Source: Adhaeribacter pallidiroseus (GTDB lineage: Bacteria; Bacteroidota; Bacteroidia; Cytophagales; Hymenobacteraceae). Taken from it: 64,000 bases of DNA. Positions 11,485 through 53,951 of this stretch are shown piece by piece (position 1 is the first letter of the stretch; each line of letters begins with the position of its first letter). The stretch spans positions 4,278,001 through 4,342,000 of the forward strand of contig NZ_QASA01000001.1 in NCBI RefSeq assembly GCF_003340495.1, given 5' to 3'. The notes beneath the pieces were generated by a model. The model ran no database searches. It saw nothing but the letters and a program-made list of their open reading frames with translations, and was not told where the DNA came from. A program made the translations under genes and the position numbers.

Positions 11485-12498
11485 TTACCCCAGTTTTTGC
11501 CGCAACTCGTAAGTAGCCCGTAATTTTTTCACCAGCCTTGCTGATTCGGTAAAGTTTAAGGTTTGCGCCCCATCCGAAGCGGCTTCTTCGGGCTTTTCGT
11601 GGGTTTCGTAAATAATGCCGTCGGCACCGGCCATTACGGCGGCTAAGGCCATGGGCTCAATATAATCCCGGATACCAATGCCGTGCGACGGATCCACGAT
11701 AACGGGTAAATGCGTTTTGTCTTTTAAAATCGGCACAGCGTTTAAATCCAAAGTATTGCGGCTGGCCGTTTCGTAAGTCCGGATGCCGCGCTCGCAGAGC
11801 ATGAGTTTTTCGTTACCCCCTGAAAACACGTACTCCGCCGAATACAGTAATTCATCGATGGTGCCGGAAATGCCGCGTTTAATCATCACGGGTTTATCCA
11901 CTTTGCCCAGTTCGTCGAGTAAATTAAAATTTTGCGTATTGCGGGCACCTACCTGGTAAATATCGGTATAGTCGTACATGGGCGCAATTTGCGATACCTG
12001 CATCACTTCGGTGACAATTTTAATGCCGTGTTCCTGGCATTTGGCGTAGAACATTTGTAAACCGTCAATGCCCAAACCCCGGAAGGAATACGGCGAACTA
12101 CGCGGTTTAAACACGCCGCCCCGCATCACCCGCACGTTGTTGGCTACCAAATGCGCAATGGTTTTTTCTACCTGTTCTTCGGTTTCGATGGAGCACGGAC
12201 CGGCCATTAAAGTAAAGTTACCTTGCTTTATTTCCACGCTATCACCCAGGTCTACCACCGAAGGGTTTACTTTCCACTTCCGCGAAACCAGTTTATAATC
12301 ATCCGACACAATGTGCAGGTCTTTAATACCGGGCATGTGGCCCAAGCTACGGATATCAAACTCCGCTTTGCCAATGCCAATTAGGTAATCGCCCCGCTGG
12401 GTTTTTACCGGGGTAACTTTGTAACGAAAGCTTTTAATCTTTTCGATAATGGCTTTTCTATCCGCTTCAGCAACTTGGTTTTGTAATTGAATGATCAT
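11485..12498 (-). CDS. aroF: DAHP synthase, type I-beta with N-terminal regulatory-like domain
   Basis: 337 residues from the ATG at 12498; an upstream in-frame ATG at 12525 falls within a repeat array and is disfavoured. It condenses phosphoenolpyruvate and erythrose-4-phosphate, the first shikimate step. Residues ~1-68 form the small ferredoxin-like domain of AroA-beta enzymes; the barrel carries [49 protein letters not shown] and VDPSHGIG (metal and substrate ligands). The gene is in the same orientation as and downstream of trpA, separated by the GIY-YIG element and two heptad arrays, so it may once have been the last gene of the tryptophan operon. The N-terminal domain suggests feedback control in relatives. 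Confidence 0.93.
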
Positions 12499-12500
12499 GT

Positions 12501-12546
12501 GTTTAGTCAATAGTCCCTGGTTCACGGTCGATAGCCGATAGACTAG
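12501..12546 (-). repeat. Heptad array, GGAC/CGAC family (minus orientation)
   Basis: Read on the minus strand: CTAGTC TATCGGC TATCGAC CGTGAAC CAGGGAC TATTGAC, period 7. It overlaps the upstream edge of aroF and is inverted relative to the array at 13077-13116. Confidence 0.7.
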
Positions 12547-12664
12547 GTGGGTTAGTTAGATGAAATTTGTAATCTGATTTTTTAAATTTTTCTCATTTTA
12601 GAGAAAGCTGAAGAGCTAATATTAGTGACATAATAAGTTAAATCTTCAGGAAAGACTTAGAGCG

Positions 12665-13040
12665 GTCATTCAGGAAGAACCTATTTGGCTACGCAGCTAA
12701 TCCGTTACTACCAGAAAAGCCCAGTCCGGATTAGCTTCCCGGATGAGTGCTTCTTTTGCTTCACGGCTTAAATCCTTGATTTCTTTTTCTCTTTCAATGG
12801 CCATAGTAGCATTTGAATATCGTTCGTAATACACCAATTTATAGCAGTAATATTTGCCGGCAAAAGTTTCCGGGTTTCCCCGATTTTGGTAATGCTGTTG
12901 TAAGCGCACTGTTAAGTTGTTAGTTACGCCGGTATAAAGCACCGTTTTCCGGGGATTAGTCGTAATATACCCAAAGTAATTCCCTTGCATCTGCCTGGAC
13001 CCTTATTGCTGCGTAGCTAAATAGTTTCCTCCTGAATGAC
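12665..13040. mobile_element. Candidate GIY-YIG-bearing inverted-repeat element
   Basis: 376 bp bounded by 33-bp inverted repeats at 12665-12697 and 13008-13040 that match at 30 of 33 positions (outer ends GTCATTCAGGA, inner ends GCTACGCAGC). The only gene inside is a GIY-YIG ORF; its stop codon abuts the left repeat and its start is 17 bp from the right one. The same arms occur without a gene as fused palindromes at 15221-15277, 32764-32811 and 53892-53951. I saw no clear target duplication. Calling this mobile is an inference from structure and copy distribution. Confidence 0.65.
12697..12990 (-). CDS. Small GIY-YIG nuclease superfamily protein
   Basis: 97 residues, a stand-alone GIY-YIG domain. 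Motifs in order: GYI (residues 7-9) as the GIY equivalent, VLYTGVTNNLTVRL as the YIG segment with the catalytic-type Arg, KLVYYE, and the metal-ligand Glu in AIEREKEIK, then NPDW near the C-terminus. Relatives include UvrC N-domain, Slx1 and the short YhbQ/endonuclease-like proteins; targets of the single-domain group are poorly known. The ORF fills the interior of an inverted-repeat element between trpA and aroF, which suggests it acts on, or travels with, that repeat (inference). Confidence 0.85.
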   Translation of the reverse strand: MQGNYFGYITTNPRKTVLYTGVTNNLTVRLQQHYQNRGNPETFAGKYYCYKLVYYERYSNATMAIEREKEIKDLSREAKEALIREANPDWAFLVVTD

Positions 13041-13076
13041 CCGCTGAGGTATTATGTTTATTACACTGCTATTAAG

Positions 13077-13116
13077 CCATCGACCATGGACTATGGACCA
13101 TGGACTATTGTCTAAC
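13077..13116 (+). repeat. Heptad array, GGAC/CGAC family
   Basis: CATCGAC CATGGAC TATGGAC CATGGAC TATTGTC: period 7. It runs into the trpA stop codon and faces the inverted array at 12501-12546 across the GIY-YIG element. Confidence 0.75.
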
Positions 13117-13906
13117 TAAATATCTCCTCGCCAGATTTAATCAGGTAGATAAAATCGCGGATGTTTTCCTGCAAGCCGGTGGGTTGCTGAATAACTTTGA
13201 TAAAAGCGCTACCGATGATGGCGCCTTCGGCGTAGCGGCAAGCCAAATCGAACGATTTCTTATCGGAAATCCCAAAGCCGATCAGCTTCGGATTTTTTAA
13301 ATTCATCTGTTTGATCCGCTCAAAATAAGCCAACTGGTTATCAGTGCCGGCTACGGTATTACCCGTGGTGCTGGCCGTGGAAACCATGTAAATAAAAGAA
13401 TTAGTAAGCGCATCAATTTTGCGGATGCGATCCTCGGAGGTTTGCGGCGTAATCAGGAAAATGGCGCTCAGGTTATACCGTTCGAAAATAGCCTGGTATT
13501 CTTCTTCGTATTCGATCAAAGGCATATCCGGAATAATCAGACCATCTACCCCTACCCGGGCGGCTTCGCGGCAAAAGTTTTCGAAACCATACTGCAAAAC
13601 CGGGTTTAAATAGCCCATCAGAATAATGGGCAAAGTAACGGTATCGCGTACGTTGTTCAGTTGCGCAAACAGTTTTTTAATGGACATGCCATTGCGCAGA
13701 GCTACCGCGTTACTCTGCTGAATAGTCGGGCCATCGGCCAGGGGATCGGAATACGGCATACCAATTTCTACTAAATCGGCGCCAGCTTCCTGCAGAGTTT
13801 GCAAAATTGTGGTGGTGGATTCTAACTCCGGAAAACCCGCCGTGAAGTAAACGTTTAAGTTTGGACCCGATTGATTTTTAAAAAGTTGGGCTATTTTATT
13901 TTCCAT
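13112..13906 (-). CDS. trpA: Tryptophan synthase alpha subunit
   Basis: 264 residues. It cleaves indole-3-glycerol phosphate to indole and glyceraldehyde-3-phosphate in the TrpA2B2 complex. Catalytic Glu47 lies in [17 protein letters not shown] with the partner Asp58; the phosphate-binding region [11 protein letters not shown] and the downstream GSAFIKVI are present. The start overlaps the end of trpB by 11 bp, which implies translational coupling. It is the last canonical trp gene before the GIY-YIG element. Confidence 0.97.
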
Positions 13907-15089
13907 CTTGCTCGTCGAGGTAATTAATAATGGTTTGCAAATCTTTATCGCCTCGGCCGGATAGGTTTAATACCACAATATCGTCGGGCTTTAATTGCAT
14001 GTAATGCAAAGCGGCAATGGCGTGTGCCGATTCAATGGCCGGAATAATGCCTTCCATGCGGCTGCATAATACAACGCCCTGCATGGCTTCTTCGTCGGTG
14101 ATGGCGTAAAATTTAGCGCGGCCGCTGTCGTATAAGTGCGCGTGCATCGGCCCAATACCCGGATAATCCAGACCCGCCGAAATAGAATGGGGTTCTACAA
14201 TCTGGCCGTCTTCGGTTTGCATGAGTAAGGTTTTACTTCCGTGAATAATACCCAGAGAACCCAACACCGAGGTGGCCGCGGATAAACCCGAGTTTACCCC
14301 GTGCCCGGCGGCTTCTACGGCTACCAGATTTACGGCCGGTTCGTTTAAGTAATGATAAAAAGCACCCGCCGCGTTGCTGCCACCACCTACGCAAGCCACC
14401 ACGTACGTCGGGAATTCGGTACCTTCTTTGTAAAGCAATTGCTGCCGTACTTCGGCGCTGATGACCGCCTGAAAACGGGCGACCATATCGGGGTACGGGT
14501 GCGGACCTACCACCGAACCAATAATGTAATGCGTGTCTTCGGGGTTACTGATCCAGTCGCGGATGGCTTCGTTGGTAGCATCTTTTAAGGTTTGGCTGCC
14601 GGAAGTTACCGGTATCACTTTAGCACCCAGCAACTTCATGCGGGCCACATTGGGCTTCTGGCGTTCGGTATCAATCTGGCCCATGTACACAATGCATTCC
14701 AAACCGGCTAGGGCGCAAACCGTAGCGGTTGCTACGCCATGCTGACCGGCACCCGTTTCGGCAATAATGCGGGTTTTACCCAGGCGTTTGGCCAGTAAAA
14801 TTTGCCCGACGGTATTGTTTATCTTGTGCGCGCCGGTATGCGCCAAGTCTTCGCGTTTGAGGTAAATTTTGGTGTTAAATTTTTCGGAAAGACGCTTGGC
14901 GTAATACAAAGGCGTCGGCCGCCCCACGTAATCGCGCAGCAGCTCATCTAATTCTTCCTGAAAGCTGGGTTCGTAGATGATATCCAGGTATTTCTGACGC
15001 AGTTCTTCTACGTTCGGGTATAACATTTCCGGGATATAAGCGCCACCGAACTTACCATAATACCCACGTTCATCAACAGAAAAATCCAT
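13896..15089 (-). CDS. trpB: Tryptophan synthase beta subunit
   Basis: 397 residues, the standard TrpB1 length. PLP-dependent condensation of indole with serine. The PLP lysine is Lys89 in [19 protein letters not shown], the phosphate-binding GGGSNA loop and the C-terminal NLSGRGDKD are present. Upstream, the spacer to trpF (255 bp) holds a heptad array and a decayed palindrome, so trpBA may be a sub-block of the operon. Confidence 0.98.
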
Positions 15090-15097
15090 ATTTTTTT

Positions 15098-15180
15098 GGT
15101 TACAGGTTACAAGTTGCAGGTTACAAGTTGATTTTACTTAGTTTAAAGGTTGGAAGGTTTTAAAGTTGAAAAGTTGATCT
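15098..15180 (+). repeat. Heptad/octad array, GTT family
   Basis: GTTACAG GTTACAA GTTGCAG GTTACAA GTTGATTTT, then octads GTTTAAAG GTTGGAAG GTTTTAAA GTTGAAAA. Lies between trpB and trpF. Confidence 0.8.
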
Positions 15181-15220
15181 TGTTCTTTGACTTAAAATTC
15201 CAGGAGTCCCCACTTCTTTT

Positions 15221-15277
15221 GTCATTCAGGAGGAACCTATTTGGCTACGCAGCAAGAAAGCTCCTCTTGAAAATCAC
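15221..15277. repeat. Gene-less copy of the GIY-YIG element palindrome, one arm decayed
   Basis: The left arm (15221-15253) matches the element arm almost exactly (GTCATTCAGGAGGAACCTAT, then TTGGCTACGCAGC). The right arm (15254-15277, CTCCTCTTGAAAATCAC) is recognisable but mutated. Confidence 0.7.
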
Positions 15278-15345
15278 TTAACTTACTTTATTTATTCTCC
15301 CATTACGCCTCTCTTACAAACCCACATTCTTTTTAAAATTTATTA

Positions 15346-16014
15346 TTATCGAAACGCTTTTAGCATTTTTTTCACTTTGGAAATATTTTTTAAGCCGGGT
15401 TCCAGTTCAAACCGGCTGTTGATGTCGATGCCCCGGAGTTGGGGCCATCGGCCGGCCTTAATCGCGGGAGCATGTTCCAGATCCAGGCCTCCACTCAGGA
15501 AAAAAGGCGTATTTAAGTGATACTGCTCCAATATATCCCAATTAAAAGTAATCCCGTTGCCGCCGTGTTGCTGGCCTTTGGTATCAAACAAATAATAATC
15601 GCAGGTTCCCTCGTAAGGTTCTAAAATTTTAAAATCAAAAGCATCGTCCAGCGCAAAAGCTTTTAAAACTAAAAACCCAGCTTGCTTTAATTGACTACAA
15701 AATTCCGGGGTTTCGTGACCGTGGAGTTGCACCGCTTGTAAGCAAAACTTTTTCGTCAAAGTTCGGATGTTTTCCAGCGATTCATCCACAAACACGCCTA
15801 CTTTTTGCACGGTTGCCGGCAGGTGTTTGATGTATTCGGGATTTAGTTTTTCGCCGGCGTACCGCGCCGATTTCCGGTAAAATATAAAACCAATGTAATC
15901 GGGTTGCAAGGCTACTAACGCCCCAATGTTTTCGGGCTCCCGCATGCCGCATACTTTTACTTGCAAAGTAGTAGGTTCCGTTTTTAAGAAAGTCGACACG
16001 GGAATAGCAGTCAT
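15346..16014 (-). CDS. trpF: Phosphoribosylanthranilate isomerase
   Basis: 222 residues, a small TIM barrel. It isomerises phosphoribosylanthranilate to CdRP. The N-terminal VKVCGMREPENI carries the general-base Cys; IGFIFYRKSARY, VQLHGHE (with the conserved His), FDTKG and FFLSGGLDLEHAP follow, with GIDINSRFE near the end. It starts 21 bp after the trpC stop, in the same operon. Confidence 0.96.
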   Translation of the reverse strand: MTAIPVSTFLKTEPTTLQVKVCGMREPENIGALVALQPDYIGFIFYRKSARYAGEKLNPEYIKHLPATVQKVGVFVDESLENIRTLTKKFCLQAVQLHGHETPEFCSQLKQAGFLVLKAFALDDAFDFKILEPYEGTCDYYLFDTKGQQHGGNGITFNWDILEQYHLNTPFFLSGGLDLEHAPAIKAGRWPQLRGIDINSRFELEPGLKNISKVKKMLKAFR

Positions 16015-18750: not shown

Positions 18751-19131
18751 TTAGTTGTTATTAGGTTGTCGGTTTTTTAAATATTTGCTAAAAGCTGCTA
18801 ATTGCCGGGATAACTGAATCAATTCATCGTATTTATTTTGGTAATAAGCATCGTCTATCATTTTAAGTTCTTTTAAAACATACAGCTGGTTTCTTAGTTC
18901 CCCCGCCGATCCTTTCGCATATTTTAAAAATCGGATAAAATCGGCATTGTTGTCGTATTCAAATCCTTCCGCTATATTATTGGAAATAGACATAGCAGCT
19001 CGTTGCATTTGGTCCCGGGTACCGTAATCTATTTTTACATTTCCTTCAGCAAACATCTTATAGATATCAATCGCAATTGAAATTGCCTGTTGATATATTT
19101 TCAAATCTTCAAACCTTTCTACTTTTGCCAT
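18751..19131 (-). CDS. Four-helix-bundle protein (23S rRNA IVP / Avd-like family) inserted in the trp operon
   Basis: 126 residues, fully helical in appearance. Family signature: FEDLKIYQQAISIAIDIY at the N-terminus, DQMQRAAMSISNNIAEGFE in the middle, FIRFLKYAKGSAGELRNQL, and a C-terminal helix ending in QLAAFSKYLK. Known relatives are encoded in intervening sequences of 23S rRNA (for example Leptospira) and as accessory protein Avd of diversity-generating retroelements; they bind nucleic acid as pentameric barrels. It has no known role in tryptophan synthesis. The gene sits between trpE and trpG, bounded on each side by GTT-family heptad arrays in inverted orientation, so I infer that it arrived as a unit with those repeats. 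No reverse transcriptase or variable repeat is nearby, so a DGR is not supported. Confidence 0.85.
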   Translation of the reverse strand: MAKVERFEDLKIYQQAISIAIDIYKMFAEGNVKIDYGTRDQMQRAAMSISNNIAEGFEYDNNADFIRFLKYAKGSAGELRNQLYVLKELKMIDDAYYQNKYDELIQLSRQLAAFSKYLKNRQPNNN

Positions 19132-32576: not shown

Positions 32577-32627
32577 CCCTTCCGCCCTAAAGGGCACCTT
32601 CCCTAAAAACAGGGAAGGAAATGCTGC
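32577..32627 (+). repeat. REP-like double-hairpin unit, copy A
   Basis: CCGCCCTAAAGGGCACCTT then CCCTAAAAACAGGGAAGG: two short hairpins in tandem. Near-identical to units at 37719-37769 and, inverted, 32908-32955 and 37917-37970. Confidence 0.75.
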
Positions 32628-32763
32628 TTTCCTTTAAGATAGTAGAAATCAAGCCGTTTAATAAGGGCTGAATAACAGAGCCGTTTAGAGCTATTACTCA
32701 AACCAAGCTTATCCTATTAAGTGTATGGCTACTAAAATCATAAAAATTTTAAAAATATGGTTT

Positions 32764-32811
32764 TTCAGGAGGAATTTATTTGGTTACGTAGCTAAATAGA
32801 TGCCTCCTGAA
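32764..32811. repeat. Gene-less copy of the GIY-YIG element palindrome
   Basis: TTCAGGAGGAATTTATTTGG to CCTCCTGAA with GTTACGTAGC at the centre; 48 bp imperfect palindrome. Confidence 0.75.
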
Positions 32812-53891: not shown

Positions 53892-53951
53892 CTGTCATCC
53901 AGGAGGGACCTATTTAGCTACGTAGCCAAATAGGTCCCTCCTGGATGACAG
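53892..53951. repeat. Gene-less GIY-YIG palindrome, best-preserved copy
   Basis: 60-bp near-perfect palindrome: CTGTCATCCAGGAGGGACCT at one end, GCTACGTAGC at the centre and the complement at the other, with one mismatch. It lies 58 bp from the ackA stop. Confidence 0.85.

Follow-up and report, generated by a model that had tools for sequence, protein, structure and literature searches.

REPs have been split into two superfamilies, tagged GTAG and CGTC, and in the available part of the census that describes them the GTAG repeats have RAYT transposases (Di Nocera 2013, PMC3733652). The CGTC repeats, in the same part of that paper, 'seem lacking a dedicated transposase', and the guess made there is that they are either dying out or mobilised by many kinds of enzyme; no RAYT or IS200 transposase gene flanked by CGTC REPs was recorded in it (PMC3733652). 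CGTC-tagged REPs include dRS3 of Neisseria and RPE-4 and RPE-6 of Rickettsia.

Here a locus is described in which the gene for a single-domain GIY-YIG protein, a predicted nuclease, lies between inverted GTC-tagged REPs. The reading that we favour, and consider probable, is that this is a compact REPtron-like element, the scattered REPs being its non-autonomous relatives.

The gene, its arms and their gene-less copies

The features of the window, by which is meant the whole 64-kb stretch of DNA analysed, are collected in Table 1. The two arms at the gene form an inverted repeat of 34 nt that is 91% complementary, and the whole arm-gene-arm unit is 378 bp long. As the first-pass annotation had described, the repeats hug the ORF, its stop codon contacting the left arm and its start lying 17 bp from the right arm. 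The assignment of the gene to the GIY-YIG family was also correct: a profile search with the minus-strand ORF gave PF01541 with E=3.6e-13. There was no match for the 97-aa protein in NCBIfam. Comparison of the window gene with its ortholog in genome G009 gave a dN/dS of 0.16 and the gene is therefore under purifying selection.

Table 1 Features of the window (positions count from its first letter)
Feature	Position	Strand	Basis
Left arm, REP unit GTC...GCTACGCAGC, outer end GTC-tagged	12664-12697	+	inverted-repeat search
GIY-YIG nuclease gene (predicted), 97 aa, single domain, ATG start	12697-12990	-	ORF list, PF01541
Right arm, REP unit in reverse orientation	13008-13041	-	inverted-repeat search
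Single REP unit (half-element), GTCATTCAGGAGGAACCTATTTGGCTACGCAGCA, without gene	15221-15254	+	pattern match
Gene-less palindrome, two units fused tail to tail, 83% over 24-nt arms, centre GTTACGTAGC	32764-32811		inverted-repeat search
Gene-less palindrome, 97% over 30-nt arms, centre GCTACGTAGC	53892-53951		inverted-repeat search; DNA fold z=-14.3

An AlphaFold2 model of the protein had a mean pLDDT of 95.1. When it was compared with the PDB using Foldseek no match below E 0.001 was obtained, the best being UPF0213 protein BH0048 (1.4e-3) followed by Slx1 (0.04). In an alignment of 32 rows Y8, Y19, R29 and E68 are invariant and N87 is nearly so; from other GIY-YIG enzymes we take these five to be the catalytic residues. 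The model and the alignment point to a protein that has the GIY-YIG fold and the active-site residues, and it is predicted to be a nuclease.

Gene-less palindromes of the same arms had been claimed at three sites in the window. Two of these are indeed palindromes (Table 1), but the third is a half-unit only: no inverted repeat and no partner arm was found within 15221-15277, where the half-unit is followed by unrelated sequence. This half-unit is common to genomes G000, G009 and G024 and is not in G003. The search of the complete genome for the arm that the first-pass annotation had proposed was carried out allowing up to three mismatches, in a count in which each palindrome scores twice. The window has 7 matches against 0.00 expected and the 6.43-Mb genome has 58 (32 forward, 26 reverse), two of them being those that flank the gene, and the pattern read backwards has none. 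The genomic copies are either full palindromes (GTC[A/C]TTCAGGAGG...CCTCCTGAA[G/T]GAC) or single units. Seven half-units of the window genome, picked by eye, have an identical end point, ...GCTACG(C/A)AGC-A, after which the sequence is unrelated; as all seven end alike, the unit has defined ends, GTC outside and AGC(A) inside. The fused palindromes fold very strongly as DNA (z about -14), and the window's own unit as a single strand has a weak stem (z=-0.5) and no stable hairpin.

The window genome has one further GIY-YIG gene of the same kind, with 62% identity. It lies inside a different inverted repeat, GTCATTCTGAAAGAATCTTCTGA, and palindromes related to that repeat, e.g. GTCATTCTGGAAGAATCTAACCGG...AATGAC, are scattered genome-wide at fixed spacing.

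Some other repeats were seen in the course of this work. GTC-tagged units whose starts are 121-123 bp apart form inverted pairs around intervening sequence at G000:C1:1740653-1740791 (L194) and at three loci of G009 (L195-L197), the spacing of compact inverted GTC pairs being 37 bp; the wider pairs are possibly a longer gene-less element. A dispersed motif, TCCCTAAAAACAGGGAAGGA, is found near REP units at window 32600-32640 and in two other flanks, and a longer dispersed repeat (CAGTTTGGCT..GGGCCTTCTAAGGTTCCGG) is near several units (L010, L029 and one further flank). The small gene at window 18751-19131, presumably with a helix-bundle-like product, was considered as a second case of a gene within 'inverted repeats' and was rejected, its repeats being low-complexity GTTGCAGGTTACAAGTTG. 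Low-complexity repeats like these also flank relatives of that gene in three other genomes of the genus.

Pairing of gene and repeats in other genomes

Homologues were tested for inverted repeats scoring at least 15 within 250 bp on each side, using the best match per genome, so that the sets contain related loci that are not independent. Such repeats flank 26 of 31 homologues from the same family, 6 of 29 in a phylum sample (16 of 29 at a score of at least 12), 7 of 14 in a plasmid collection (loci chosen for spread from 34 records) and 32 of 80 in an all-phyla set, which is the best 80 of the 543 loci confirmed when GTDB genomes were scanned. At pseudo-gene positions in the same loci the corresponding counts were 0/553, 0/519, 13/245 and 13/2841. 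In the all-phyla set (best 80 of 543) 48 homologues are without a clear repeat pair at this score, and no inverted repeat was found at loci L099 and L100. For loci from the GTDB scan the orientation was guessed by motif, and for at least one (L040, on a long branch) wrongly; the flank tests treat both orientations alike, and the ORF ends of motif-oriented loci may be off. Cross-pairing the flanks of different homologues was tried as a null and dropped: its scores (930 pairs, median 10, 90th percentile 26, maximum 150) overlap the true values of 10-57 because relatives share arms.

A second test required each side of the gene to have a GTC tag with an exact hairpin immediately behind it, pointing inward. 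With stems of at least 5 bp this arrangement was found at 12/31, 12/29, 8/14 and 49/80 loci (family, phylum, plasmid and all-phyla sets), against 0/163, 1/122, 1/63 and 13/697 in the null. With stems of at least 6 bp the counts drop to 1/31, 0/29, 5/14 and 6/80 (null 0/163, 1/122, 0/63 and 1/697), since the stems of many Bacteroidota units are 5 bp long; the enrichment of GTC hairpins rests on stems of at least 5. When all 64 triplets were ranked as tags at that stem length GTC came top, with 209 of 308 flanks against 104 for the next, a ranking made after the one at stems of at least 6, in which GTC was third (46) behind GAA (56) and CAT (47). Outward-facing pairs with stems of at least 5 occur at 16%, 38%, 29% and 26% of loci in the four sets, so inward orientation is a tendency and not a rule.

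Genes other than GIY-YIG genes gave far lower figures. Four 200-kb stretches were covered, with 565 ORFs, of which 14 had inverted repeats scoring at least 15 (two of these being GIY-YIG genes and four lying by low-complexity repeats) and 6 had inward tags on both sides; for 112 small ORFs the counts were 7 (again including two GIY-YIG genes and four with low-complexity repeats) and 0. The other ORFs in the homologue loci themselves had such repeats in 0/9, 0/27, 2/10 and 4/152 cases (family, phylum, plasmid and all-phyla sets) and tags on both sides in 0/9, 3/27, 0/10 and 11/152. In a tree of 150 homologues 116 were positive by a looser rule, for which either inverted repeats scoring at least 12 or tags on both flanks sufficed, and the state changes at least 30 times across the tree. 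The association that the first-pass annotation had proposed, in which a GIY-YIG protein takes the place that the Y1 transposase has in the REP/RAYT pair, therefore holds against controls in many phyla. The outcome that it said would count against this, no association of repeats and GIY-YIG genes elsewhere, is not what is seen, yet the homologues without a clear pair are many.

Genome G165 has three tandem REP-gene-REP units, 411-419 bp apart (L208, G165:C86:44500-47000). dRS3 repeats surround the GIY-YIG gene at a Neisseria gonorrhoeae locus (L103), and their tags are directed toward the gene, the opposite of the usual arrangement; the record has 73 pattern matches.

The pairing was also compared between subfamilies. 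In 185 gammaproteobacterial genomes the GIY-YIG matches form two separate score classes with different flanks. The strong, REP-type class is found in 39 genomes (E <=4.2e-20); 30 of its loci were fetched and 28 scored, two being dropped for short flanks. The weak class, which we take to resemble YhbQ, was represented by 20 chosen loci. Inverted repeats were found at 21/28 strong-class loci and at 1/20 weak-class loci, where the repeat is not a REP, so the pairing belongs to one subfamily and not to GIY-YIG genes at large. Tagged hairpins were present on both sides at 18/28 and 0/20 respectively, and an inward tagged hairpin was present on at least one side at 26/28 and 6/20. Many of the strong-class arms are textbook CGTC repeats, CGTCATTCCSGCGNNNGCSGGAATCCA. 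The small GIY-YIG gene at the Radiobacillus locus L104, of the UPF0213/YhbQ/YazA kind, again has no REP flanks.

The REP content of these genomes was also compared with the presence of the gene. At least five REPs were counted in 12 of the 39 genomes with a strong-class gene and in 11 of the 146 without one (Fisher p=4e-4), at least one REP in 22/39 and 22/146, and the association had p<=0.0024 whichever of four cut-offs was applied. That 11 genomes are rich in REPs and have no such gene means either that the repeats can persist after its loss or that the drafts are incomplete. G003 and G024 are two further genomes that are REP-rich without the gene. Within genus g3 REP count against gene presence gave a one-sided p=0.054 (22 strong, 11 weak). 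A generic REP pattern for the family to which the window genome belongs occurs in 52 of 100 genomes (control 0); genera g4 and g5 have GIY-YIG matches but no genome with the generic pattern, which means that these genera have REPs of another form or lack REPs altogether.

In Azospirillum, Aeromonas, Neisseria gonorrhoeae and many Gammaproteobacteria the flanks of the gene are CGTC-tagged REPs. Judged by sequence, then, the arms in many Proteobacteria are known CGTC-tagged REPs and the repeats themselves are no new kind. The GTC outer ends in the window and its relatives agree with the CGTC/TGTC tag. Folding shows a stem of 8-9 bp starting AT in Azospirillum (z -4.05), the sequences show one in Aeromonas, Neisseria and many Gammaproteobacteria, and the window unit has none (z -0.5). 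The unpaired tail, assigned by eye, is ATCCA in many Proteobacteria and ATCT in many Bacteroidota relatives, and the window unit has neither. With its GTC tag present and its single-strand stem weak, the window's own unit is best described as a putative divergent version of the CGTC type.

Site histories and rival explanations

Two orthologous sites have versions with and without the gene. Between trpA and aroF (names that we assume for the flanking genes from their ORF translations) G000 and G009 have the gene-bearing unit, and G003 and G024 have a gene-less fused palindrome in the same place; a family search found no GIY-YIG match in G003 or G024 at E <=0.001. G019, G014 and G034 have neither gene nor palindrome there and G029 has a different neighbour. 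A tree of the trp region groups G000 with G024 (support 89/98), so the pattern at this site needs two changes in either direction. In Sphingobium, the gene of strains TomTYG46 and TomMM7A is enclosed by CGTC repeats. At the same spot TomTYG74 has a hairpin without the gene; this has the length of one REP, carries GTC at either end and is not clearly a fusion of two units. TomTYG72 has neither gene nor hairpin. These sites support the idea, put forward in the first-pass annotation, of a palindrome opened by the gene or of palindromes derived from the unit by deletion. That annotation had also suggested looking for empty sites and target duplications: gene-less versions were found at the two orthologous sites, but there was no target-site duplication or base-exact empty site at the compared loci, the flanks being too diverged. 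In the 200 kb around the window locus in four genomes of the genus there was no clean empty site and intergenic DNA was too diverged to fix junctions. Shinella H4-D48 is without the gene, but is too diverged to place the junction, and Sinorhizobium pSymB was rejected as an empty site since a relative also carries the gene.

Other sites bear on the unit as a whole. In Azospirillum lipoferum 4B a REP pair, the gene and a second REP pair occupy a 617-bp gap between sufB and sufC; the same gap in A. ramasamyi, A. oryzae and B510 is 87-129 bp, with flanks that are 94-95% identical. In the 4.94-Mb record of Aeromonas caviae KAM479 the pattern GTCATYCCCGCN{3,8}GCGGGRATCC has two exact matches, lying exactly at both flanks of the gene, and in G422 the exact matches to the REP pattern are again only two, both at the gene flanks. 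These two cases look like recent arrivals of the whole unit from which no copies have been seeded yet. The Aeromonas element had no match in E. coli genomes, and the Aeromonas protein had no tblastn match in phage records.

In the mechanism that we propose the nuclease would recognise the hairpin or cruciform formed by its own REPs, probably in ssDNA or in branched DNA at replication forks, and would cut near the GTC tag. The break would then be repaired by copying a REP-bearing template. Single units and fused palindromes could spread by such cutting and copy-repair, as could, now and then, the unit complete with its gene, and loss of the gene from between the arms would leave a palindrome behind. 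In its widest form, to which we give an even chance, the proposal is that small GIY-YIG nucleases are the dedicated mobilisers of the CGTC-tagged REP superfamily across bacteria, beside RAYT and the GTAG repeats, cutting hairpins without a Y1 transposase.

Homing is the main rival: a freestanding nuclease would cut REP palindromes that are already there and insert a copy of its own gene, and the palindromes, merely its target, would owe their spread to something else. The gene-less palindromes and hairpins at orthologous sites (G003, G024 and Sphingobium TomTYG74) do resemble empty homing sites, and REPs persist in genomes without the gene. However, Aeromonas caviae KAM479 and G422 have only two exact matches, both flanking the gene, which suggests that the unit brought its arms along; these cases speak against homing as the whole story. 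The Azospirillum gene, moreover, has REP pairs on each side, and the trp-region tree (G000 with G024) needs two events either way. Overall, we regard homing as unlikely. Distinctly less likely still is hitch-hiking, with RAYT/Y1 or other enzymes moving the REPs, the GIY-YIG gene spreading by REP recombination or co-mobilisation, and the nuclease having no role. REPs recombine readily, all eight genomes of the genus have Y1_Tnp matches, and three of eight Y1 loci (L268, L264 and L269) have within 600 bp inverted repeats that score 20-29 and are possibly the loci's own terminal repeats. Against this, the three Y1 matches in G000 are weak (E of at least 1.6e-6), of the eight Y1 loci, taken from 27 listed places and including one from G000, none is next to a REP of the window type, and the link is specific to one GIY-YIG subfamily. 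The absence of RAYT and IS200 genes flanked by CGTC REPs from the available part of the census also argues against it (Di Nocera 2013, PMC3733652).

Chance or composition would make the pairing a coincidence between small genes and REPs that are both intergenic, and REPs are described as mainly intergenic in the available part of the census (PMC3733652). This explanation is already disfavoured, and we consider it very improbable, since the same-locus controls, the 565 ORFs and the 112 small ORFs are all far lower than the homologues and the YhbQ-like class gave one case in 20, with a non-REP repeat. Just as improbable is a role for the arms at the RNA level only, as a terminator or stabiliser around a cargo or defence gene: the palindromes do fold very stably and sit between genes, but there was no Rfam match within window 12000-16000, and the dispersed gene-less copies, the tandem units and the GTC-class arms in many phyla are left unexplained. 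A REPtron-like element thus remains the reading that we prefer.

Novelty and comparison with known systems

No report linking GIY-YIG genes to REPs was found in the open-access PMC literature (subscription papers and preprints being outside the scope of the search), in which 'GIY-YIG' never occurs together with 'repetitive extragenic palindromic' or with 'dRS3'. The terms GIY, nuclease, RAYT and transposase are absent from the available part of RepRanger 2025 (PMC12306157). A further paper has the CGTC census among its references, in the part available (PMC6006769). The intragenic list in the available part of the census leaves out REPs inside hypothetical proteins of <120 aa (PMC3733652). One REP-flanked GIY-YIG gene (L259) carries the annotation 'excinuclease ABC subunit C'. 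That omission and this label may be why the link was missed. The system had been called possibly undescribed in the first-pass annotation; this looks right for the partner gene, which appears unreported, but not for the repeats, which in many Proteobacteria are the known CGTC-tagged REPs.

A linked enzyme makes the origin of the CGTC-tagged REPs, one of the two REP superfamilies, directly testable. It also suggests a role for genes that are now labelled only 'GIY-YIG nuclease family protein' or 'excinuclease ABC subunit C'. If the proposal is true, GIY-YIG nucleases join the enzymes that may drive mobile palindromes, and there is a second, independent REP-nuclease mobile system beside RAYT and GTAG.

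Among known proteins the small GIY-YIG proteins of the UPF0213 kind, for which we take YhbQ and YazA to be subfamily names, have the fold and size of the window protein and include the nearest solved structure (1zg2), but they appear to be a distant class without REP flanks (1/20 in Gammaproteobacteria, none at L104). Slx1, a eukaryotic repair enzyme, is the next-best fold match after UPF0213 and processes branched DNA according to PDB entry titles; it is larger and has a partner protein. GIY-YIG homing endonucleases, of the I-TevI kind, are likewise nucleases linked to mobility for which gene-less versions of the site exist; here, in contrast, no intron or intein was seen, there is no extra DNA-binding domain and the repeats are dispersed in many copies. 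The CGTC-tagged REPs, dRS3 among them, share with the arms described here the GTC tag, in many Proteobacteria a hairpin starting AT, and possibly an ATCCA or ATCT tail. They have been described as having no dedicated transposase, whereas a partner gene is proposed here, and the window unit differs from them in its degenerate stem. The REPtrons (RAYT/TnpA-REP) are like the window unit in having an enzyme gene inside inverted REPs and dispersed copies that are single or palindromic. Their enzyme is a Y1/HUH transposase and their tags are GTAG, whereas the enzyme here is a predicted GIY-YIG nuclease (PF01541) and the tags are GTC/CGTC.
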